Assembly (NCBI GenBank): GCA_934045075.1
Contig: OW203726.1
Span: 8,330,860-8,394,859, forward strand
Direction of reading: 5' to 3'
Source of the DNA: Yponomeuta sedellus
Lineage: Eukaryota; Arthropoda; Insecta; Lepidoptera; Yponomeutidae
Length of the DNA: 64,000 nt
The translations under genes and the position numbers were made by a program. The notes beneath the pieces are model-generated. The model was given only the letters and a program-made list of their open reading frames with translations. It did no database searches and had not been told where the DNA came from. Below are positions 5,115-62,399 of this stretch, piece by piece (position 1 is the first letter of the stretch; each line of letters starts with the position of its first letter).

Positions 5115-7190
5115 ATCTTTGGCGAACTTGCTTGATTTAGTTCTAGTCAGTTATAAAATTTATGGTAGCAGTTATTAATACACAATAACGGCGTTCGGGC
5201 ACTCTTGCTAAAACTTATCTTAGAGAAAAGTTATAAGATTAATTTTTAAAATAACTATAACACTTTTTATTTTATGTACTAGTTATACTTTGACCGTGTT
5301 TAGCCCGTCTAGAGATAGGGGCAAAGTGGATTGTACTATTTATTACGTTCTGTTCACTAGTATAAGGCCTACGTGAAATAAATGCATTTTTTTTTGTTTT
5401 GCCAACAGGAAAATCGCCAAAGAGTTCACAACAAGAAACAAAACAATAATGTAAAGCTCTATGATGGAGACAGAGCGAGTTAGACTACTTTGTTAAATAA
5501 AAGAGGCTAAAGTAGCATTTGACCGAAATTCTTCATCCAAAAGTTAATTTAAATTACTGTTTAAGTGATGTTTAAGAAGTTAGTGGTGCAAGTGTAGTTT
5601 ATTGTAAAAAATCTCTTAGAACTAACTATAATAAGTATTGACGAAGAACTAATGTTATTGATTATTATTAATTACCCCTAGATGTACCCAAAATACACAT
5701 AAAGCTAATAACTGGACTTTACACAAAACGTGCATGAGTTCTCGGTTTTAGTGTAAGAATTTTAATTCTGTTAATTAAGAAGTGCGGTGTTTTGTTTCTG
5801 TAAAAGTCTCCCTGGACCTATGGATGAAATCTTGCTTAAAATGGACATATTTTACGTATGTTTACTTTTAAGCGTAGAAAGTGAGACTGGAAAAAAAAAA
5901 TTTTTTCCCTATTTAACCCATTAACTTCTGTCTACAAAAAAGAAGGGCTAGGCGCACGATTACTTTTAACGAGTCATACTTAGATAGGGCAGATCGCTTC
6001 ACCTGAACCACGCACAAAGTAGGCGCGCGACTCAAAGGGACGACCTGTACCCAACAAAAATACGGTCGCCCTTTTAGGGCATAGCCAAGCGTTACCAAGG
6101 CCCAATAATTTCCTTACTCAATAAATTGAGGCACGATTAGACAACGATCATGATGTTGATTTTATAAGTGACATGAAGAAACAACCATATCGCGATGTAG
6201 AATTATATAAGCGCCATCTAGTGTCGAGATTAAAATATACCTTCTTCTTCTTTAGCATTTGTTTGTCCTGATTAAAATATATAAATTATTTAACTTTTGC
6301 CCTCAGTTCGTATATTACGTGCGCAGAATATTGAAACAAAGTAGTATGGAATTTGAGAGACCATTGGAATCGCTCAAGATTTAGTGCGCACATTTAGGCC
6401 ACTGAGGAGCCTTGATAATAAGTTTCTTCCATGCCACTCTAATATACATATTATATTACCTAATCTCAAAAGCAAAACTATGCACACAATTCATCATAAT
6501 AAAAATAATAAAAACCTTATTGGAAGTAATAATGCTTAGAAAGAATATCATTTCTACATTTAGTAACTATATGTAATTAATTTTTCGAAACCGCCATCAA
6601 CATTAAGATGAACTTATCGTAAAATATACAGATATTGTACTAAAACAGTTGAGCACATCGCTCGTAGCAGCGTGCGAAACATTTTACTTGTGATTTATAT
6701 CAGTTTGTTTAGGGGCAAGCAAGCAAAGCGCACGAGCCTACATCTGCACCTTATATTTACGCAGGCTACAGTCGAAAACCACTTCAATCACTTGGAAATA
6801 AGAATCACAATGTCGGAGTGAAGCTGAGCAGATAAGTGAGCTCTGTAAACACGCGATGTTACCGTAAATAAGAACTCTCGCTCTCGAGGAGTTAAGTCGG
6901 CAAAAAACACGCGTGTTAATTTATTATTAGATATTCCAATGCGCTTTATTAATATGCTGACTTCTGCTTGCACGAAAAAATAGCTACAATTTATTTCAGA
7001 GAGATAAGAACTCGGTTTCTCTGGAAGGAGAAACATTTAACGGGATATTAAAATAATTAACAATTTTAACGTTACACTTCGTAACGGTCCCAGGTGGCGC
7101 TTACGAAGATAAATTAGTCTCGATTCGCGTTTCAGGTTAAAGATGTGAAGATTAATGATAAAGTTAAGAAGCTCTTAACATGTTCAAGCT
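5115..7190. other. Unassigned AT-rich DNA
   Basis: No gene was found. The string ATTGGAATCGCTCAAGA near 6364-6380 resembles part of the tandem hairpin unit at 16223-16640 and may be a stray copy. The 82-codon minus frame at 6788-7036 has no known motif. Confidence 0.45.
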
Positions 7191-13616: not shown

Positions 13617-13775
13617 TATATATTTTTTTATGAAGCCTATAAACGTCCCAATGCAGGGCACAAGCCTTCTGTCAGACAGAGAGTATGGGCTTAATTACTA
13701 CGCGTGCCCACCTCACGACGTTTTCCTTCACAGTTGCCGAGTGGTATTGCTACTATAACTTCACAAATGTAAGTA

Positions 13776-14435
13776 TACAGGGTGTCTCATTCAAATCGGT
13801 CAGTATGGGAAAGTCTGAATCTATAAGACATACGAAGATCTGTTCTGAGGAACCATGTCATCGATTTTAATAACAAGAAAAACTGCATTCATACATTTTA
13901 AAAACATCTGTACTCCGTTCGGGAATCGAACCCGGTTGTTGTGAAAAAAAAAACTTCTATTAATCAAACACTAACAATCAATTGAAAAGCCCACTTAAAG
14001 AAGAAGACCTAAAAGTGGCCATAGAGACCATTTTTACGCAAATTCACTACATGAAGATACAAAATGCAATCGTAAGATCGTTACCTAAACATGTTGAATA
14101 TTGTATTGAAAAAGGCGGCGGTCACTTCGAGCACCTACTAAAATTAATTAAAGTATGTGAAAACAATGCATTTTATTAATTTTAGATATCATGTTTCATA
14201 CAGACATTTACTGCTTAAGACCTACAGAATCGATATCTAAATAGAAATAGTGTAGGTTTTTTTTTTCAAAACAACTGGGTTCGATTCCCGAACGGAGTAC
14301 AGATGTTTTTTAAAATGTATGAATGCAGTTTTTCTTGTTATTAAAATCGATGACATGGTTCCTCAGAACAGATCTTCGTATGTCTTATAGATTCAGACTT
14401 TCCCATACTGACCGATTTGAATGAGACACTCTGTA
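13776..14435. mobile_element. Tc1/mariner-type element with long TIRs, copy 1
   Basis: The ends are TACAGGGTGTCTCATTC and its complement (GAGACACTCTGTA), flanked by TA on both sides as expected for TA-targeting transposons. The inverted arms are about 165-180 bp (13776-13945 against 14265-14435). A 656-bp relative sits at 49686-50341. Each arm contains a T-arm/B-box-like string, GGTTCGATTCC at 14278-14288 and its complement at 13922-13932. Confidence 0.8.
13982..14179 (+). pseudogene. Transposase C-terminal fragment
   Basis: A 65-codon open frame inside the mariner-type element. Its core (IQNAIVRSLPKHVEYC, GGGHFEHLL) resembles the C-terminal end of insect DDE transposases of the mariner-related group, where a '..R..YC....GGHFEHLL' pattern follows the catalytic domain. 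No DDE triad is present, so it cannot be an active transposase. The same fragment occurs on the minus strand of copy 2 near 49960-50070 (KVGGHFEHLL). Confidence 0.6.
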
Positions 14436-15040
14436 TACCTAACTTAGAAAACAGAGTCATTGGTACATGCCCGCACTTGGAGTCGAACCTGGGGCTTTCG
14501 CTTCCGAGTCCATTGTTCTACCAACTAGGTTAACGCCGCCGCCCGACCTATCTATTATTATTTAAATTTTCACATTCTGTAAACACGTATCTTGTGACCT
14601 TATTTTTTAATTTTATTCTTTTATTTGTAGGTCACATGTTAAAATATCAACCGGTTACGTAAAAAGTATAAAAAACAATAGAGAAGATCAACTAAACGTG
14701 ACGATACTTAACAGTCTTTTGACAATGCTATAGAAGAAACAGTTAAATAGTATAATAGACACAAATCGCGAGCAGCAGTGGTCGCCTCTTACAGTAAGCT
14801 GGCACAATTTCAAACTCCCGCCAATTCCAACCTGAATGCGAAGAATTCAGTTCATCAAAACCAGATGTTCAGCGCGGTCCTATGTAAACACGAACGTTTG
14901 CGTAAATATAACGACTCGAATTATACTAACGGCTTTTTTACAGGAAGCCGCTTATAGGAGTAATGTAGCGTTGAGAGCAGAGGAGGGTTTACGAAGCATT
15001 TTAATTGAAATCAAAATAAATTAACCACTTATTAGACTCT

Positions 15041-16222: not shown

Positions 16223-16640
16223 GAACGATTCCGATGGTCTAACTGTCAAATTAGTATGTGATTTGACAATTAGACTATTGGAATTGCTCAGGGCTTGTGT
16301 GAGAGAACAAGTGATTATAGAACGATTCCAATCGTAAAAACCTATTTAGAGGCTAAAAATTCCACCCATGCCGGGATTCGAACCCGCGACCTCTGGCTAT
16401 CCGTGCCAGCGCTCTTTCCAACTGAGCTAATGGGCGACTCACCGGCATCAGTGAAATTTCCAATCGTCTGTCAAATTAGTATGCGATTTGACAATTAGAC
16501 AATTGGAATCGCTCAGGACTTGGGTGAGAGAACAAGTGATTATAGAACGATTCCAACCGTCTGTCAAATGCGTATGCTATTTGACAATTAGACGATGGTC
16601 ATCGCTCAGGACTTGGGTGCAAGAACAAGTGATTGTGTAG
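16223..16640. repeat. Tandem hairpin repeat, three units of about 93-97 bp
   Basis: Units start with GAACGATTCC at 16223, 16320 and 16545. Each contains inverted segments (GATTCCAAT with ATTGGAATC, TCAAAT with ATTTGA), so each unit can fold. Unit 2 is interrupted by a tRNA-like SINE at 16336-16457. Confidence 0.8.
16336..16457 (-). mobile_element. tRNA-derived SINE (family C) with 10-bp TSD
   Basis: On the minus strand it reads GAAATTTCACTGATGCCGGT, then a tRNA-like cloverleaf (CCCATTAGCTCAGTTGG, GCGGGTTCGAATCCCGGC), then GGAATTTTTAGCCTCTAAAT and GGTTTTT. Exact direct repeats TTCCAATCGT at 16326-16335 and 16458-16467 flank it. The D- and T-arms are intact, but the anticodon loop lacks the usual T33 and the same tail follows in every copy, so this is a SINE rather than a tRNA gene. 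Confidence 0.85.
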
Positions 16641-24220: not shown

Positions 24221-24767
24221 TTATACTATTGTTATTTTTAACCCGTGCTAAGTACATTTTTTAAAACCTATTTAGAGGCTAAAAATTCCACCCATGCCGG
24301 GATTCGAACCCGCGACCTCTGGCTATCCGTGCCAGCGCTCTTTCCAACTGAGCTAATGGGCGACTCACCGGCATCAGTGAAATTTCGAACCTCTTTACAC
24401 TATTCTCTGTATTACGTACAGGCAGCGACATCTGGCTGAAGTAAATTGCATCACTTACAGCCCCGAGTACCTACTTCGCAATTAGGTTTTTACATCGGAA
24501 TGATATCGCTGTACCCACATGATTATACTATTTTTATTTTTAATGCACTAACCCGTGCTAAGGACAATTTTAAAAACCTATTTAGAGGCTAAAAATTCCA
24601 ACCATATCCCGGCATGGGTGGAATTTTTAAGCGATATCATTCCGATGTAAAAACCTAACTGCAAAGTCGCCCATTAGCTCAGTTGGAAAAAGCCCTGGCA
24701 CGGATCGCCAGAGGTCGCGGGTTCGAATCCCGGCATGGTTGGAATTTTTAGCCTCTAAATAGGTTTT
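24221..24767. mobile_element. Composite of inverted family C SINE copies
   Basis: A minus-oriented copy (24222-24411, tRNA part about 24295-24365), a minus-oriented tail fragment (24524-24598) and a plus-oriented copy (tRNA part 24666-24740) lie together. Inverted leader segments at 24472-24506 and 24631-24662 pair with each other. The whole block is bounded by TATGTCACTCT at 24210-24220 and 24768-24778, which suggests one insertion event or nested events within one TSD. Confidence 0.7.
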
Positions 24768-31880: not shown

Positions 31881-32031
31881 CCATAAACCTCAGAACACAA
31901 AAATAAGGAGAAGTGCCTTGTGGGCGTGGCACTGTCGCCCAACGTTAGCCCATTTGGGCTAACCTCTGCGAAACTTTAAAATATGGCCCTCAATCGCTTC
32001 GCGCCAGCCGTCGTAGTAACATCTGAGAAAA

Positions 32032-32145
32032 ATGCCTAATTGCGCAGTGATTACTTGCAGAAATCGCTGTGATACATGCTATTCAAAAACAGGGGAGTGT
32101 CTTTTCACCGGTAAACCTATTTTACTCACTATATTTGTCTTATAA
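32032..32145 (+). pseudogene. THAP-like N-terminal fragment (tentative)
   Basis: A 37-codon frame begins MPNCAVITCRNRC. THAP zinc-finger domains usually start M-P-x-C-x(2-4)-C, and THAP domains occur at the N-terminus of P-element transposases. Here the first Cys pair (C4, C9) fits, but no downstream Cys/His pair was found. A donor-like G|GTAAAC at 32110/32111 could end a first exon; I could not join it to a second exon with THAP features. An identical frame lies at 59764-59877. Confidence 0.35.
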
Positions 32146-33164
32146 ACTACGAAAAATCATAATTATAATAATTTTATGTGCAATGTGCATCACATTACTA
32201 AGAACATAAATGGGACGTATTTATTACATTGTAGTTACTCCACTGCTGTTTCTATATAGGATTTTCGTGGAGGTTTGCTAACTAGGAAAAACCAGCCCGC
32301 AGTGAACCGTCACGCAAAACTGATCATTGTTCAATGCGATGTTTCGAGGTACGGCCGCATGTATTTGCCGCGAAATGTCAAATTCACCAGTAGGTCAGCT
32401 GGAGACATAGTGATGGGGTAGTACCTTTCTTTTCAGACTGATTAGGTATCGATATTATTGAGGCATTTATTTATAATCGTTCGTCCAAACTTCCAAAATT
32501 ACTAGAACCAATTATTGTAAGACTAGGTATCTAGTCTTATCGTCGACTATTGCCCGCGACTCTATCTGCGTAGACTTCAGCTTGCGTTGCTAAGGAAGCT
32601 TTTATTTTAGTAGAAGGATTTTGTCTTATAAAAACAGGCCTAGCTTCGATCATGTATTTCAAAAAGTTTCTAATAAAGATAAAGTAAAATACGAAACAAA
32701 AATGGATGAAAATACAGAGGGTATAACTGATTTCCTCTCAAATAAAGTACCATTTGCTCCATCTATTTTACAGAGAAGTGTTTCCAGATGCTAAAGTGGG
32801 GGAAAAAATATTTCCGTGGGCAGTTCCTACTTTGAAAATACCAGTAATAACGAGTTCCATAGGTTGAGGTACCAGTATATTTAAAATCACGATAAAATTT
32901 TACATGGTTTAGAATATTCAATTATCACTTTATTCTAATCTTCATTTCATATGGACGACGCATAACTCTCCAAAAGTAAGTGTTTCTAAAGAAACAAATC
33001 AGGTGATGTCGATGTGGTACTAAATCATAGTCTTATATATTTAATTTTTTATGAGCGTTATGTTATAAATGAAATTCGATTGTGTAATGAAAAACAAGTT
33101 AAATAAAGCATTTTCAGTATTTTAATAATTTATTTACCATTTTAAATCCGACAAGTTCTCGAAT

Positions 33165-33390
33165 GGAGACCACAATATGGTATGTCGGTACTTGCTTATA
33201 TGTCATATCGGCAAGTGCAGCGTCGGACGACAAGATGGAGAGAAGATCTCATCCTAGTCGAAGGAAAACGCTGGATGTAAGCCGCTTTCAACGATGTAAC
33301 TGGTCTTTTTGGAAATCCATGGAGGAGGCCTATGTCCAGCAGTGGATATCTTGTGGCTGAATGATGACGATAATGAAAATATTCTCTTTA
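33165..33390 (+). mobile_element. RTE-like 3' end nested in the 2.75-kb element
   Basis: The plus frame at 33163-33360 ends SFWKSMEEAYVQQWISCG and a stop, followed by ATGATGACGATAATG. The W.SMEEAYVQQW ending plus the ATGATG tail is typical of lepidopteran RTE elements. The same insert is in copy 2 (60898-61123), so it predates the spread of the larger element. Confidence 0.7.
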
Positions 33391-33889
33391 GGATTTTAGT
33401 CAGATGCTGATTTTATTTTTTAATCTATATATATGTTTCGAAAGTTTCATTGAAATTTTTTTTGACAAGCTTACAAAAGTTCTTCCTATTTACTGTATTT
33501 TTAATTAGGAAGTTACTTTATTTACAGGCCCATGATACATTTCAATCACAGCCATAAACATATTCTTTACTTAATCCTTATAATCCAAGCGTGGCTACTG
33601 ATTTCCAATATATCGCTGTTACTCAGACAAGTGGCAATTTGTTTAGAAAAATTGTAGTTTTTTGAGTTTATACATGTGTTTATTCTATTTTTATATAGCT
33701 GGGTGAATTATTTTCAGAGAATGAGAAAGTAATTGCTATCGTATAAATAGCTAACTTAAAAAGTCAGCACTTCATTCTTTCACCCAACAAAAACTGCTGT
33801 TAATTTACAGAGTCCTAACAGAGTTACCAATATTTAAAGCCAATTTGTAAATGGTAATGTAAGTGCATTTCACGTTACATTGGGATTCA

Positions 33890-34065
33890 TATACTAAATA
33901 AAATACAAAGAAATATCCAAGATCCAGGTACAAATGCGTCCCTGACCGTGGACATGCTCTTCACACAAATATTAGTTCTTTCCATTACCAGGATTTAAAC
34001 CCAGAAGACCTAGCTTTCCGGACAGAGTCACTAACAAGTATGCTTCAGTGGTGTTCTGTCCAACA
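33890..34065 (-). mobile_element. SINE remnant (family D type) nested in the 2.75-kb element
   Basis: On the minus strand: GTCTTCTGGGTTTAAATCCT (a decayed T-arm), then TTTGTGTGAAGAGCATGTCC and CTTGGATATTTCTTTGTATT. This order resembles the family D body at 7205. It is also present in copy 2 at about 61623-61798. Confidence 0.6.
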
Positions 34066-34642
34066 AATTTAACATATCGTATGAGTATACAGAACAGGGG
34101 TCATCATCATTATCAAAATAATCAAATTCTATATCAGTAGAAAGCCAAGTTTGCGTCTTTATCATATACTGAAGCCACAAATACTGTCAAAAAGACACGT
34201 ATTTAATAAATATTTACATTTCACAGGACAGTAAATTAAAATAGGATTATTTGTTTTAATAATATTGTTTTTGTAAATTTAAGATGCTCTGTTTTTTGTA
34301 TCATCCCAACACGAAGTATACTGTTAATAAATGAATAACCTCTCATCGGATAATTTTATCGATAGATGTATTATTTGATACAAGTGTTCCATTCCTAAGG
34401 AGTTCACCGACGCTGTTGTTTACGTGTACGAGTGTATTCGTACAATTGTTTTTCATAGTGTGCGAACCAATTAAAAGATTAGAACGCTAGTAAATGTCTG
34501 GACAGACGTGTGCGTGAACCTTATATTTACAATATTGTGCATGTAATGAAAACGCACACATATTCAAAAGTGGCGACAGCGGTACCGGACTTATTTCGCG
34601 GCTAGGGCATATCTCCTTCTTTCTATGATCTGAGCCATAAAC

Positions 34643-49500: not shown

Positions 49501-49684
49501 TCGCGATACTTATACATAGTTATAAATTAAACGCGTCAAATCGCGATTATTTATTAGGTAAAACGTAATTACCTTGTTTCCCGACGTTTCAGCACATTAC
49601 AGCAATGTGCTCTTTGACCGCGATAGACCGCTTTGTTTGGCTAACGTTTTACCTAATAAATAATCGCGATTTGACCCGTTTAAT
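49501..49684. repeat. Family H repeat, folded back on itself
   Basis: 49527-49567 and 49644-49684 are inverted copies (AAATCGCGATTATTTATTAG and complement). The left side continues into CCCGACGTTTCAGCA as at 4890. The mariner-type copy 2 abuts its right edge. Confidence 0.7.
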
Positions 49685-49685
49685 A

Positions 49686-50341
49686 CACAGGGTGTCTCAT
49701 TCAAATCGGTCAGTATGGGAAAGTCTAAAACTATAAGACATACGAAGATCTGTTCTGAGGAACCATGTCATCGATTTTAATAACAAGAAAAACTGCATTC
49801 ATACATTTAAAAAAACATCTGTACTCTTTTCGGGATCGAACCCGGTTGTTTTGAAAAAAAAAAACCTACACTATTTCTATTTAGATATCGATTGTGTAGG
49901 TCTTAAGCAGTAAATGTCTGTATGAAACATGATGTCTAAAATAAATAAAATGCATTGTTTTCACATACTTTAATTTGTTTTAGTAGGTGCTCGAAGTGAC
50001 CGCCGACTTTTTCAATACAATATTCAACACGTTTAGGTAACGATCTTACGATTGCATTTTGTATGAAAACAATGCTTTTTTTTTCATTTTAGACATCATG
50101 TTTCATACAGACATTTACTGCTTAAGACCTACACAATCGATATCTAAATAGAAATAGTGTAGGTTTTTTTTTCAAAACAACCGGGTTCGATTCCCGAACG
50201 GAGTACAGATGTTTTTTAAAATGTATGAATGCAGTTTTTCTTGTTATTAAAATCGATGACATGGTTCCTCAGAACAGATCTTCGTATGTCTTATAGTTTC
50301 AGACTTTCCCATACTGACCGATTTGAATGAGACACCCTGTA
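49686..50341. mobile_element. Tc1/mariner-type element with long TIRs, copy 2
   Basis: The ends are CACAGGGTGTCTCATTC and GAGACACCCTGTA, flanked by TA. The inverted arms are about 250 bp, longer than in copy 1. The loop holds the transposase C-terminal fragment on the minus strand (AIVRSLPKRVEYC, GGHFEHLL). A B-box-like GGTTCGATTCC lies at 50184-50194; the left-arm counterpart near 49833-49843 has lost one base. Confidence 0.8.
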
Positions 50342-50968
50342 TATAACAAAGAATATTCTGATCTTCTTGTCTTACTCTTCCAGTGCGTTCGTAGTCTTCT
50401 CGAAAAAGTCAATAAATAATGTGACATCATGAACGTCAGGGGAAGCAATTAATGTGACCGCACGTGGCAGACGGCGCGGCACACATCGCTATCGCCCGGC
50501 GGTGGCTCAGTCGTTTTATTGCGGAACGATTCATCTTATCCACGTCGTCGTTTCGCATGTTGAATTGCTGAGCAACAGGAAACCCGGGATTATTCACATA
50601 TCTTTTAGTGTTCAACGCCAAAATCAGAGCGACAAATGGGCTGCAATTTAAGGTCTCTACGGAAATTTGTTGATAAAAGCGAATTTTGTTCGATCAACAT
50701 TAAAAATAGACGTCGGTAACCGGAACCGTAATGATGTACCTGACAGGGTGTTCGGCAGACGGATTATCATATGGTATTGTGGAGAGGCGGGGTCATTTGG
50801 AAATTATACACTACATTTGTCTATGTACACCGTTAAAAAGTCAACAGAAGTTTTGAAAGAATTATAACTCTAATTTTTAATACAGTGATCTTGATAGCAG
50901 GGATAGCGTGATTAGAATCAAGTGATTTAAAAAAAATATTTACTTTAATCTGTACTTTTTTTTACATA
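50342..50968. other. Unassigned DNA
   Basis: Nothing recognised. Confidence 0.4.
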
Positions 50969-51677
50969 AAGGAGAATGGGCAAAAGTGGTCCAAAAGCTG
51001 CCACGGATAAGAATAACACCAATCGATAGATATCTTTTTTCTCACCAAATTAAATTTAACATAATTAAAATCCGTAACAGAGATTTTTTTAAGTGTGATT
51101 CCATATTCATTGTAGTTAACTTGGTTTTTCTATAGATAGGACTTAATATTATTGTGCAATGAAATGCTGCTTTCCTGATTTTTTGCTGCTTTTTAGATCT
51201 AATATTAGACGAATATCTATAGAATGGCAGGCATAAGTTTAATATTGAGTATTTTAATAAAAATGTTTTCTTTCGTTTTATTTTTCATAATTATGATATT
51301 TACGCTTACAATCACGCTCTGGGGGCATTTTCATAAAAAAAAATATATTTACATACTGTATGGATATTTTTTAACATATATTTTTTATGAAACAGGCCCG
51401 TATTTGTATGATACAGGCCCTTGGGTAGTTAGACCGTATTGCTAGTTACAACCAAGCCGTATTTTGTACAAAACGACTTTGGAGCAGAGCAGCAGTCTTT
51501 AAACTAGTCAGTTTACATTTCATTGATAAAATAAAAAGTATTTTTCTCAAAATCACCCGGACCTATTTTGATGCCCTTTTGTCACTTTGAAATAAGCATA
51601 TGAGCCTTTACTTTGGCACATGTTTGAAACGTGGAGCTCCTTGGACCAAGCTCCATACATTTTTGCCCATTCTCTTT
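50969..51677 (+). mobile_element. MITE with AGAATGGGC ends, copy 1
   Basis: Terminal inverted repeats GGAGAATGGGCAAAA and TTTTGCCCATTCTCTTT bound about 0.7 kb. The inverted sister copy at 54205-54902 matches along its length. A hydrophobic 73-codon frame at 51224-51445 is broken by an indel in the sister copy, so it is probably not a gene. Confidence 0.75.
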
Positions 51678-54204: not shown

Positions 54205-54902
54205 AAAGAGAATGGGCAAAATGTATGGAGTTTGGTCCAAGGAGTAAAGGCCCATATGCTTACTTCAAAGTGACAGAAGGGCATAAAAATGAGTCCGGGT
54301 GATTTTGAGAAAAAATACTTTTTATTTTATGATGAAATGTAAACTAAGTAACTAGGTTTAAGACTGCTGCTCTGCTATAAAGTCGTTTTGTACAAAATAT
54401 GGTTTGGTTATAACTAGCAATACCGTCTAACACCCAGGGCCCTGTTTCATAACAAATACGGGCCTGTTTCATAAAAAATATATGTAAAAAATATCCATGT
54501 ATGTAAATATATATTTTTTATGAAAATGCCCCCAGAGCTCGATTGTAAGCGTAAGTATCATAATTATGAAAAATAAAACGAAAGAAAACATTTTTATTAA
54601 AGACAGTCAATATAAAACTTATGCCTGCCATTCTATAGATATTCGTTTAATATTAGATCTAAAAATCAGAAGCATATGCACCAGAAAATCAGGAAAGCAG
54701 CACTTCATTGCACAATATTATTAAGGTAGGTCCTATCTATAGAAATTCAAGTTAAATACAATTAATATGGAATCACACTTAAAAAAATCTCTCGGACGGA
54801 TTTTAATTATGTTAAATTTTATTTGATGAGAAAAAATATATCTATCGATTGGTATTATTCCTATTCGTGGCAGCTCTTGGACCACTTTCGCCCATTCTCC
54901 TT
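54205..54902 (-). mobile_element. MITE with AGAATGGGC ends, copy 2 (inverted relative to copy 1)
   Basis: Starts AAGAGAATGGGCAAAATGTA and ends CACTTTCGCCCATTCTCC. It shares GAGTCCGGGTGATTTTGAGA-type and CCCCCAGAGC(T)CG blocks with copy 1 in reverse. Confidence 0.75.
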
Positions 54903-57900
54903 CAAGAAAAACTTTCCTTCTTCTGCCAAATAAATTTCATTTCATTTGAACTAGTGCAGTATAGTTGGTACAGCTACTGTTGGTACGTTAGAGTAATTAA
55001 TAAAAATGAGAAAAGTTAACAAGTTTTTTATGCTTGCAGAAGAAAACAGATATCCGTATTCGTAGCATAAGATTTTGGACGATTTTTTTCGTAGTTCTAG
55101 ATCAGCGGGAAGTCACTGAATTTTGATTCCCTTAAGTGTCGAAATATACGTATTTTTTTGCGGCATAAATGACCGCAGCTTGTTTTTGAATTAATTTAGA
55201 AATTAGATTTTTTCGCAATTTCAAGGGATTACAGGCATGAGTATATGGTTTTAATTTCAACTCGATACCGTCCAGGAATCTCGGATCAGGGATGGGAAAA
55301 TGCAGATTTTTTCAACTTTTTACATAGTTCACATTTCTATGTTCTAAATAAAGTTTTTTCCTTTCATTTTAAACTTATTCATAAAGACTGACATGAAGGT
55401 TTTTGGGGTTATTTCCCTCCGGGTCTTCCTCGATCAACTATGAAGTTACCACAGTTCATTATACGCCAAAGAAATGACGGAAAATCACGACGGGTATCGA
55501 GTTTCAAACTACAAATCAAGAAAGGAAATAATTTATGGAATATTTTATCCCGGCGGGACTCACTCACGTTCAGGACTTCCCAATTACAATGTTGCAAGGA
55601 AAGTGATCAGAATAGGTAGGATAAATTCAGATATATATTTATCAATATGTTTATTTTTTATTTTGTTTATTTTTGTGACCACAAATACTTTCTAGTAGGC
55701 ATATGGTAACTTTTAGTTGTTATATTCTTTTTAATGCACTAACCCGTGCTAGGGTTTTAAAAAAACTTTTATAGTTGTTTTAAGCCAGTGTTGTAATATT
55801 TGTTTAAAACCGTGTTTAAATCCCTGTTCAAAAAACTCCAATTAGAAACACGTTTTTTATGTTCTATTTTAAACAGTGTTCGAAACACCTGTTTTATAAC
55901 ACTTTGTTACTTTTAAACATGCCAACGCTGGTCTAACAGACAGACACGGATGAAAAACGAAGTGTTCCGTCGGTGTTTCAGGTTCCGTTTTTCCTCTTGA
56001 GACAAGGAACTCTAAAAAGAGTAAGTACACGTTCTCTCAATATCTATTGGCCTTTGACTGAACCTTCGCAGATATAACGAGGTTCTTGAATGGATGGAAA
56101 CGTTGAGTTCCCGACTTCGCTGTTTGTAAAATAATAGGGGGCTTTCTTTGTGAAAAGGAATAATGATACAGCCGTTTTAATGGTAATAATACGATCTAAT
56201 GCTTGATTTGGTTGGATCATTCATTTATTTATGTATTTCAGAAGAGGCCTCGCCTGTAGAATTTTATAGGTAACCATCGGACAAAAGAACCTATTCTTAA
56301 CTTTCAAGGTCAAACTCAACAGTACAACTTAACACGCAGCCCTTGTATAGACCTCATGGATGGGCGACTTTTATGACTTGATCAGCATTCAAAGATAGTT
56401 AAAATATAAACATAACGGAACGCCAGTATCCTGGAGGGCTAGACAGAGATCAGGGTTCAGAAGGAATATTGCGTTGGTTTGGATAAACAGACGAAGGGCA
56501 ACAAAAATATAAAATAGCCCTATAAATTAATTCATAATGCTTTAAACTAACCGTGAGAAAGAAAACGACAACAGGTAAGCGCTCTTTCAGGGGGGAACAA
56601 AGCACCTGATCTGAACAATGCGGCTATACACTTCAGATAACACAACATTGAGGCAGGAAATAAAGCACGAGGGAGAAAGGCACAAACAAATTAAACATTT
56701 ACATTGCGCCCCCTGCCAGCGGAGTGAGCAGAGAAGTTTGACAGTGGCGTTTTATTACTGTGATCAACACGAAACCAGACGCGTCTGCGCATCAGAGGAG
56801 GGTTATGATTTCTCCACGACTGGTAGAAAATGCTTAAGGCATTTACTCCGCCGCATTGTACAGTGCGATGCCTGTATGAAAACTCGCAGGTCTAAAATTG
56901 AGATCCTGCTCTAGCGAGGAAGTACGCCACGCGGTTCACAGTGACCTAAATAAAAATGTTCAGCGGCGCTTTCAACGGCAAACAGCTGGTTTAGATAACG
57001 CCTGGTCGGAACAAAAGCAGTCTGTCAGTCGCTCCCGAAAAAAAATGTTGGACACGTCACATCTTTCAACAAATATCGACGGCGTTCAGCGGTCTTAAAA
57101 AGCTGGGGATTTTTTAGGGAGAAATTTTTTTTGCTTATCGCTTATTTTTTGCTAAATTAATCTCACTAATTTAACCGTCCACGAACTCTACTAGCGGGTT
57201 GTGAGTGGTTGGCAGTGCGGATATCCCTGAACAGCCTACGTGCAGGCGTTGTTTGATCCAAGGAAAACCTACAAAACCTTTTTTTATTTGTACGAAAAAG
57301 TTTGATAGATGCTGATATATGATGCCGATGCAGAGCTTGAGGAACAATATCGCAACCTTAACCTATATCTACCCTGAAGCTTCACAGTGAGTCTGAAAAG
57401 ATCTAAGCATCACCTAGCACTAGCAATGCCGCGCTTCTGGCGCCAGGTCTAATGAGTACGACGGACTGACGCTTTAGATATGATATAAGATGGACTGCTC
57501 TAAGACATATGTTAATGCTCACAGTGAAATCTAGTGACAAATTTCAGAGATAAAATCTATACTTTCAATAAGCAGAAGAACGACCTTAAATTTCTAGTCC
57601 TTTCATTTATCTGAACTCTTTTTTGTACACCTAAAATGTATGTGGTATAGATGCATTACAATAAGCCTAACGTTTCTTTGGAAATTATCAATAGAATACC
57701 ACAAACTTGTTCAGTTGGTGTACCCACTAACAGATACCTCCTATTGCCTCGACATCGATCGTTCGATTAACGTTCTTGTTTGAAAAATGAGTAAACAATA
57801 ATTTGGTTTTCAGGAACCTCGACTAAGGCGAGTCATTTGAAAATTAATTGAAAACACGAAAAGTTTACACAGCAGATTGAATTTGCTAAATTAAAATATG

Positions 57901-59547: not shown

Positions 59548-59763
59548 AGGGGAGGAAACCATAAAAATAAACTTTTTAAGATTTTATTTTACAGTTTCGT
59601 TTGTGTTTTAATGTTTTACCCTCAGAACACAAAAATAAGGAGAAGTGCCTTGTGGGCGTGGCACTGTCGCCCAACGTTAGCCCATTTGGGCTAACCTCTG
59701 CGAAACTTTAAAATATGGCCCTCAATCGCTTCGCGCCAGCCGTCGTAGTAACATCTGAGAAAA

Positions 59764-59877
59764 ATGCCTAATTGCGCAGTGATTACTTGCAGAAATCGCT
59801 GTGATACATGCTATTCAAAAACAGGGGAGTGTCTTTTCACCGGTAAACCTATTTTACTCACTATATTTGTCTTATAA
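59764..59877 (+). pseudogene. THAP-like N-terminal fragment, copy 2 (tentative)
   Basis: Identical to the frame at 32032-32145; see that entry. Confidence 0.35.
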
Positions 59878-60897
59878 ACTACGAAAAATCATAATTATAA
59901 TAATTTTATGTGCAATGTGCATCACATTACTAAGAACATAAATGGGACGTATTTATTACATTGTAGTTACTCCACTGCTGTTTCTATATAGGATTTTCGT
60001 GGAGGTTTGCTAACTAGGAAAAACCAGCCCGCAGTGAACCGTCACGCAAAACTGATCATTGTTCAATGCGATGTTTCGAGGTACGGCCGCATGTATTTGC
60101 CGCGAAATGTCAAATTCACCAGTAGGTCAGCTGGAGACATAGTGATGGGGTAGTACCTTTCTTTTCAGACTGATTAGGTATCGATATTATTGAGGCATTT
60201 ATTTATAATCGTTCGTCCAAACTTCCAAAATTACTAGAACCAATTATTGTAAGACTAGGTATCTAGTCTTATCGTCGACTATTGCCCGCGACTCTATCTG
60301 CGTAGACTTCAGCTTGCGTTGCTAAGGAAGCTTTTATTTTAGTAGAAGGATTTTGTCTTATTAAAAACAGGCCTAGCTTCGATCATGTATTTCAAAAAGT
60401 TTCTAATAAAGATAAAGTAAAATACGAAACAAAAATGGATGAAAATACAGAGGGTATAACTGATTTCCTCTCAAATAAAGTACCATTTGCTCCATCTATT
60501 TTACAGAGAAGTGTTTCCAGATGCTAAAGTGGGGGAAAAAATATTTCCGTGGGCAGTTCCTACTTTGAAAATACCAGTAATAACGAGTTCCATAGGTTGA
60601 GGTACCAGTATATTTAAAATCACGATAAAATTTTACATGGTTTAGAATATTCAATTATCACTTTATTCTAATCTTCATTTCATATGGACGACGCATAACT
60701 CTCCAAAAGTAAGTGTTTCTAAAGAAACAAATCAGGTGATGTCGATGTGGTACTAAATCATAGTCTTATATATTTAATTTTTTATGAGCGTTATGTTATA
60801 AATGAAATTCGATTGTGTAATGAAAAACAAGTTAAATAAAGCATTTTCAGTATTTTAATAATTTATTTACCATTTTAAATCCGACAAGTTCTCGAAT

Positions 60898-61123
60898 GGA
60901 GACCACAATATGGTATGTCGGTACTTGCTTATATGTCATATCGGCAAGTGCAGCGTCGGACGACAAGATGGAGAGAAGATCTCATCCTAGTCGAAGGAAA
61001 ACGCTGGATGTAAGCCGCTTTCAACGATGTAACTGGTCTTTTTGGAAATCCATGGAGGAGGCCTATGTCCAGCAGTGGATATCTTGTGGCTGAATGATGA
61101 CGATAATGAAAATATTCTCTTTA
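60898..61123 (+). mobile_element. RTE-like 3' end nested in copy 2
   Basis: Identical to 33165-33390, ending SMEEAYVQQWISCG and an ATGATG tail. Confidence 0.7.
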
Positions 61124-62399
61124 GGATTTTAGTCAGATGCTGATTTTATTTTTTAATCTATATATATGTTTCGAAAGTTTCATTGAAATTTTTTTTGACA
61201 AGCTTACAAAAGTTCTTCCTATTTACTGTATTTTTAATTAGGAAGTTACTTTATTTACAGGCCCATGATACATTTCAATCACAGCCATAAACATATTCTT
61301 TACTTAATCCTTATAATCCAAGCGTGGCTACTGATTTCCAATATATCGCTGTTACTCAGACAAGTGGCAATTTGTTTAGAAAAATTGTAGTTTTTTGAGT
61401 TTATACATGTGTTTATTCTATTTTTATATAGCTGGGTGAATTATTTTCAGAGAATGAGAAAGTAATTGCTATCGTATAAATAGCTAACTTAAAAAGTCAG
61501 CACTTCATTCTTTCACCCAACAAAAACTGCTGTTAATTTACAGAGTCCTAACAGAGTTACCAATATTTAAAGCCAATTTGTAAATGGTAATGTAAGTGCA
61601 TTTCAAGTTACATTGAGATTCATATACTAAATAAAATACAAAGAAATATCCAAGATCCAGGTACAAATGCGTCCCTGACCGTGGACATGCTCTTCACACA
61701 AATATTAGTTCTTTCCATTACCAGGATTTAAACCCAGAAGACCTAGCTTTCCGGACAGAGTCACTAACAAGTATGCTTCAGTGGTGTTCTGTCCAACAAA
61801 TTTAACATATCGTATGAGTATACAGAACAGGGGTCATCATCATTATCAAAATAATCAAATTCTATATCAGTAGAAAGCCAAGTTTGCGTCTTTATCATAT
61901 ACTGAAGCCACAAATACTGTCAAAAAGACACGTATTTAATAAATATTTACATTTCACAGGACAGTAAATTAAAATAGGATTATTTGTTTTAATAATATTG
62001 TTTTTGTAAATTTAAGATGCTCTGTTTTTTGTATCATCCCAACACGAAGTATACTGTTAATAAATGAATAACCTCTCATCGGATAATTTTATCGATAGAT
62101 GTATTATTTGATACAAGTGTTCCATTCCTAAGGAGTTCACCGACGCTGTTGTTTACGTGTACGAGTGTATTCGTACAATTGTTTTTCATAGTGTGCGAAC
62201 CAATTAAAAGATTAGAACGCTAGTAAATGTCTGGACAGACGTGTGCGTGAACCTTATATTTACAATATTGTGCATGTAATGAAAACGCACACATATTCAA
62301 AAGTGGCGACAGCGGTACCGGACTTATTTCGCGGCTAGGGCATATCTCCTTCTTTCTATGATCTGAGGTTTTACCTATCGGCTTTCTATTACTAAGCGT

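Follow-up and report, generated by a model that had tools for sequence, protein, structure and literature searches.

Near-identical copies of a probable P-superfamily derivative in the moth Yponomeuta sedellus belong to a genome-wide transposon family

The closest described systems are the P element of Drosophila and the P-MITEs of Anopheles gambiae. The Drosophila P element has a complete gene, perfect terminal inverted repeats (TIRs) of ~31 bp, 8-bp target-site duplications (TSDs), and subterminal repeats of 11 bp, and its transposase binds a 10-bp site whose distance inward from the TIR is 9 bp at one end and 21 bp at the other (PMC7776569). Anopheles P-MITEs such as AgaP8MITE2450 combine P-derived 5' and 3' ends with a center unlike P, and the Anopheles P masters have TIRs of 27-31 bp, with 8 and 6 mismatches in P3 and P4, respectively (PMC1562414).

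The Yponomeuta element analyzed here resembles the Anopheles P-MITEs in being non-autonomous, in having probably P-derived ends, and in lying between perfect 8-bp TSDs, and its length of 2.75 kb compares with ~2.45 kb for AgaP8MITE2450, judging by the name of the latter (PMC1562414). It differs from them in belonging to a moth and thus to another insect order, in that masters are known in Anopheles and none was found here among nine P-transposase loci read, and in that relics of both P coding ends can still be recognized; the comparison with the P-MITEs is one of anatomy. With the Drosophila P element, it has in common a TIR of ~31 bp and an 8-bp TSD, and it has a putative inner site with a similar asymmetry, at 10 and 22 bp inside the TIRs rather than at 9 and 21 bp (PMC7776569). 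Unlike those of the Drosophila element, however, its TIRs are imperfect, and no inverted 11-mer is common to its two terminal 400-bp regions. Of the 31 TIR letters, 11 agree with the Drosophila P TIR, and the papers listed in a literature search on the terminal letters were unrelated, judged by their titles. Nor, among the papers listed, did any title concern this 2.75-kb family in a search of titles and abstract openings. We regard the family as new and place it beside the Anopheles P-MITEs as a non-autonomous P derivative; parasites of this kind are well documented.

Structure and ends of the two copies

Copy A (31889-34634, 2746 bp) and copy B (59621-62367, 2747 bp) lie on the plus strand of the window, by which we mean the whole 64,000-nucleotide stretch analyzed, with their starts 27,732 bp apart on a single contig. 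Pairwise and genome comparisons delimited both copies, which are 99.89% identical. They differ by a single T absent from A (near 32629 in A and 60361 in B) and by two substitutions, C/A at 33873/61606 and G/A at 33883/61616. The boundaries, the count of two substitutions and one indel, and the imperfect TIRs given in the earlier note were thus confirmed to the base, and its claim of unrelated flanks with distinct TSDs proved exact. Each copy is bounded by its own flush 8-bp duplication, CCATAAAC for A (31881-31888 and 34635-34642) and GTTTTACC for B (59613-59620 and 62368-62375), and when 500 bp on either side of each copy were compared, A and B had only short words in common, the best of 16 bp (E 0.09). 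Neither copy allows a duplication register of 5-7 or 9-12 bp, and the chance of one 8-bp TSD match is ~2e-5 per copy.

The element ends read CTCAGA. In copy A, the left TIR (CTCAGAACACAAAAATAAGGAGAAGTGCC, 31889-31917, plus strand) and the right TIR (CTCAGATCATAGAAAGAAGGAGATATGCC, 34606-34634, minus strand) were found as an inverted match and by motif scan, and the scan also placed the TIRs of B at 59621-59649 (plus strand) and 62339-62367 (minus strand). Depending on whether 29 or 31 bp are counted, 23/29 or 24/31 bases are inverted-identical. With up to three mismatches, the 29-bp TIR motif occurred four times in the window and in none of 100 shuffles.

Inside the TIRs lies a 10-bp inverted site, CACTGTCGCC on the left (31930-31939 in A, plus strand; element nt 42-51) and CGCTGTCGCC on the right (34572-34581, minus strand; nt 54-63 from the right end). 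The two sites are 9/10 alike, lie 10 and 22 bp inside the TIR if it is counted as 31 bp, and are present (CNCTGTCGCC) in all 38 copies examined. By analogy with Drosophila, we consider them candidate transposase (THAP) binding sites with a P-like 12-bp left/right offset. This reading is only suggestive, because the inner 8-mer match is not rare by chance (181/5000 random pairs and 89/5000 shuffles) and because, among four P elements of the same genome described below, L062 and L064 have weaker inner matches at candidate sites with a 10-bp offset, and L063 and L065 have no comparable site on inspection of their ends. Farther in, the interior of the element includes what we take by eye to be an RTE-type 3' end. 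The interior of A and B is common to the 26 other full-length single matches in the genome and is therefore older than their spread.

A genome-wide family and its recent movement

The earlier note had implied a two-copy picture and proposed counting copies and checking the length of their TSDs. Both checks were run on the genome (657.5 Mb in 57 contigs), and a family replaced the pair. With up to three mismatches, the TIR pattern gave 745 genome matches (368 + 377), compared to one (1 + 0) for a reversed-pattern control, and there were no matches in viral contigs. A nucleotide search, which scored only 40 of its 1048 initial candidates, found at least 28 full-length single matches including A and B, the others being 95-98% identical. 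Among the 100 TIR places listed, all on contigs C1-C4, 37 elements were paired among 63 loci, and 33 of these 37 spanned 2.3-2.95 kb, with four longer. A and B belong to this genome-wide family and are not a lone pair.

We fetched 38 further copies, which were the best-scoring ones against A, so their divergences are biased low. Exact 8-bp TSDs flanked 34 of the 40 copies examined (these 38 plus A and B). L017 has an eroded right end with a TSD still legible by eye, L018 a TSD with two mismatches, and L044 a 9-bp TSD; L046 is truncated at its 5' end; and L031 and L043 are a pair with one common outer TSD. The members of this pair (C10:23953499-23960933) are 88 bp apart, with ATTTGAAC as the outer TSD and no matching inner TSDs, and look as if the block had moved as one unit. 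Two miniatures were also seen on C2. One of 81 bp (L052:101-181; C2:4314207) carries the letters of the family's left end at either terminus and has the TSD GGCGATGC, and another of ~145 bp (L053; C2:10847792) has right-end sequence and the TSD GTGAATTC/GTAAATTC, with one mismatch.

Across the 34 exact TSDs, the target motif GTNNNNAC was preferred, with G at position 1 in 24, T at position 2 in 20, A at position 7 in 20, and C at position 8 in 22. On either side, the base three positions beyond the duplication was A or T in 33/34. Six copies (L011, L016, L027, L030, L034, and L040) out of 38 examined for it had an uninterrupted paralogous target elsewhere in the DNA searched, with matches only 85-90% alike for L027, and some of these targets sit in repeats of the window itself. 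A match for L024 was a self-match and was discounted.

Pairwise differences between the 38 copies that were aligned had a median of 2.3% and a maximum of 3.4%. A and B were the closest pair among the sampled copies (2 of 2746 sites) and were sisters in the tree (100/100), with L009 next (100/97), and they have 10 common substitutions absent from all other sampled copies. When changes were polarized by the other copies, A had lost one T and B had gained two substitutions, 10 bp apart; A's gap also occurs in one other copy, and B's second substitution occurs in one other. Neither A nor B in its present form can therefore be the direct source of its sister. At a moth mutation rate of 2.9e-9 per site and generation, the two substitutions correspond to ~1.3e5 generations (1.5e4-4.5e5). 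The recent movement proposed in the earlier note stands, with "recent" read on this scale and not as present activity.

Alternatively, A and B could be old insertions homogenized by gene conversion without recent transposition, and their shared contig and orientation, with 27.7 kb between them, favor that explanation. Three observations make it improbable. First, the two copies are alike right up to their termini and each has a perfect TSD, although the 16 bases of each pair of TSDs say little about age. Second, comparably close copies lie on different contigs, as exemplified by L011, L012, and L013, which are located on three contigs and show 4 differences per pair. Third, the two neighbors at L061, separated by 2.8 kb, have an identity of only 96.8%, and nearness by itself thus does not homogenize copies. 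Recent amplification by transposition is the reading we retain: several lineages amplified recently, with A/B the closest sampled.

For the places listed on C1-C4, neighbor pairs less than 30 kb apart numbered 3 compared to 1.09 expected (176/2000 simulations as high), those less than 50 kb apart 6 compared to 1.83 (13/2000), those less than 100 kb apart 8 compared to 3.59 (47/2000), and those less than 200 kb apart 10 compared to 6.79 (258/2000). A recent local hop may connect A and B, but this is only a suggestion, because the L061 neighbors are not a sister pair and because other near-identical pairs lie on different contigs.

Relics of a P gene and the search for a partner

The genome of Y. 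sedellus gave 109 scored matches to the PF21787 domain, many in open frames of 700-880 aa. Several multi-copy PF21787 groups, whose members score identically and have open frames of 798-841 aa, are candidates for recently active P elements. Four P elements (L062-L065) were read over their whole length. All four are bounded by TIRs and by 8-bp TSDs, which are exact in L062-L064 and match at 7/8 positions by eye in L065 (ATGATTTC/ATCATTTC, one mismatch), and their frames carry PF12017, PF21787, PF21788, and PF21789. Their first exons, at 125-676 nt from the left end, begin MPxCA (MVQCC in L063), have a second cysteine five residues on, and end near (T/S)(F/Y)H, followed by a GT donor. The 2.75-kb element is like these four in its 8-bp TSDs (one of theirs being imperfect), in a short THAP-type exon 1 with a donor near the left end, and in a similar C-terminus, and unlike them in that they hold a long open transposase frame and measure 4.5-5.4 kb.

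Several lines of evidence support assignment of the element to the P superfamily. First, a THAP-type exon 1 relic (MPNCAVITCRNRCDTCYSKTGECLFT) starts at element nt 144 (32032-32110 in A and 59764-59842 in B, in frame 59752-59874; both plus strand) and is followed in A by a splice donor, GTAAAC, read from the sequence at 32111. When a profile of the four L062-L065 first exons was run on 2973 frames of the window, each 15 aa or longer, copies A and B ranked first (E 0.0011), with the next frame at 0.057. Second, a profile of nine P C-termini placed the frame at 34085-34231 and its B twin (61818-61964) first (E 0.0026), with the next at 0.26, and this match (...SKRHVFNKYLHFTGQ; 34139-34234 in A and 61872-61967 in B, both plus strand and including the stop) extends to the last profile position and is directly followed by a stop, TAA at 34232-34234 in A. 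Both of these significant profiles are short and were built from P genes of the same genome; a full-length profile of nine P transposases gave the C-terminal frame only E 0.81, and the best single-protein tblastn match for the C-terminal relic was 0.065. Because the two relics are independent and agree in order and strand, we read the element as a P gene minus its middle. Third, the nearest TIR in letters is that of L065 (CTTAGATTAAAACAAAAAGGGGAAGATA), which matches the left TIR at 18/31 and the right TIR at 16/31 positions, each being the best of eight ends compared; 18/31 or more was reached by 0.05% of random 31-mers from the window, before allowing for the eight ends. Finally, the 8-bp TSD, a TIR of ~27-31 bp, and a THAP-type exon 1 (first exon only) are features of P elements that the element displays.

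When the element was scanned with Pfam in six frames, including versions in which putative first exons had been spliced, no domain was found; Pfam THAP does not reach the exon 1 relic, and searches of the PDB and protein databases with that relic returned nothing useful. As the same scan found no P transposase catalytic domain (RNase H with its GTP-binding insertion), an absence to be expected in a non-autonomous derivative, we class the element as such a derivative rather than as an autonomous P element. With its TIRs and 8-bp TSDs, it has the non-autonomous, cut-and-paste anatomy that had been proposed. Taking the evidence as a whole, A and B are best explained as copies of a P-superfamily transposon that is non-autonomous through internal deletion (probability roughly 0.9).

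The earlier note had left the choice between P- and hAT-type open, and the first of these held up. A hAT-type non-autonomous element would also make 8-bp TSDs, and the target motif of the hAT element hobo resembles GTNNNNAC, but hAT elements begin CAG or TAG, whereas the ends here read CTCAGA. In addition, no hAT domain appears in six frames, P-gene relics occur at both ends, and the TIR is close to that of a P element (L065) in the same genome, which together make a hAT origin very improbable. An assembly artefact or a segmental duplication deserves almost no weight, as flanks and TSDs differ between A and B and many other copies have TSDs of their own.

The non-autonomous P derivative should depend on a transposase source, and the full-length relative with the same termini that the earlier note had sought did not turn up among the nine P-transposase loci read. 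TIRs were found in four of these loci (L062-L065), none matching those of the element and all too different for these elements to be taken as its partner, and in L066-L070 no TIR was found within the stretch read. By eye, no P place on C1-C4 lay within 100 kb of a TIR place, among the ~100 of 745 that were listed. As only this fraction of the TIR places was listed, a master element may well exist. Long copies were also considered as masters and rejected by eye. The open frames of L047 (843 aa) and L048 (1041 aa) look retrotransposon-like and gypsy-like, respectively, L049 contains an insert, and L050/L051 form a nested mass of 15.9 kb; by eye, none of these showed a P gene.

Possible mechanism and other elements of the window

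Transposition of the family would depend on a P-type transposase made elsewhere in the genome and acting in trans. This enzyme would bind the inner sites, pair both ends, and cut the element out, and insertion at a staggered 8-bp target preferring GTNNNNAC would leave the duplicated 8 bp. Gap repair templated by the sister chromatid would increase the number of copies. An extended proposal, which we put forward tentatively and think rather unlikely in full, is that a non-autonomous P-type family is still moving in the living moth, with a P-like 12-bp asymmetric recognition of ends bearing new terminal letters and with an ability to carry neighboring DNA. If it were true, the moth would be a natural setting in which to study P transposition beyond flies. 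As it stands, the moth offers a well-resolved, recently active P-derived family in a genome with many long open P-transposase frames, and the choice of ends, the choice of targets, and the local hopping of P-type elements can be tested there, outside flies.

The window also contains other features. A U12 minor spliceosomal RNA gene lies at 5986-6134 on the minus strand (Rfam 96 bits), and a retrotransposon ORF has 16 protein relatives, the best named of which are in Cydia, Phthorimaea, and Eumeta, pointing to a probable lepidopteran host. tRNA-Ser-like sequences in repeated units at 16361-16437 and 24287-24363, both on the minus strand, are probably tRNA-derived SINEs. Two related elements of ~0.66 kb (13770-14440 and 49681-50345) have long TIRs (CAGGGTGTCTCATTCAAATCGGT) and apparently TA targets, and an inverted pair of ~650-bp sequences (50959-51612 and 54243-54911) is 88% identical.
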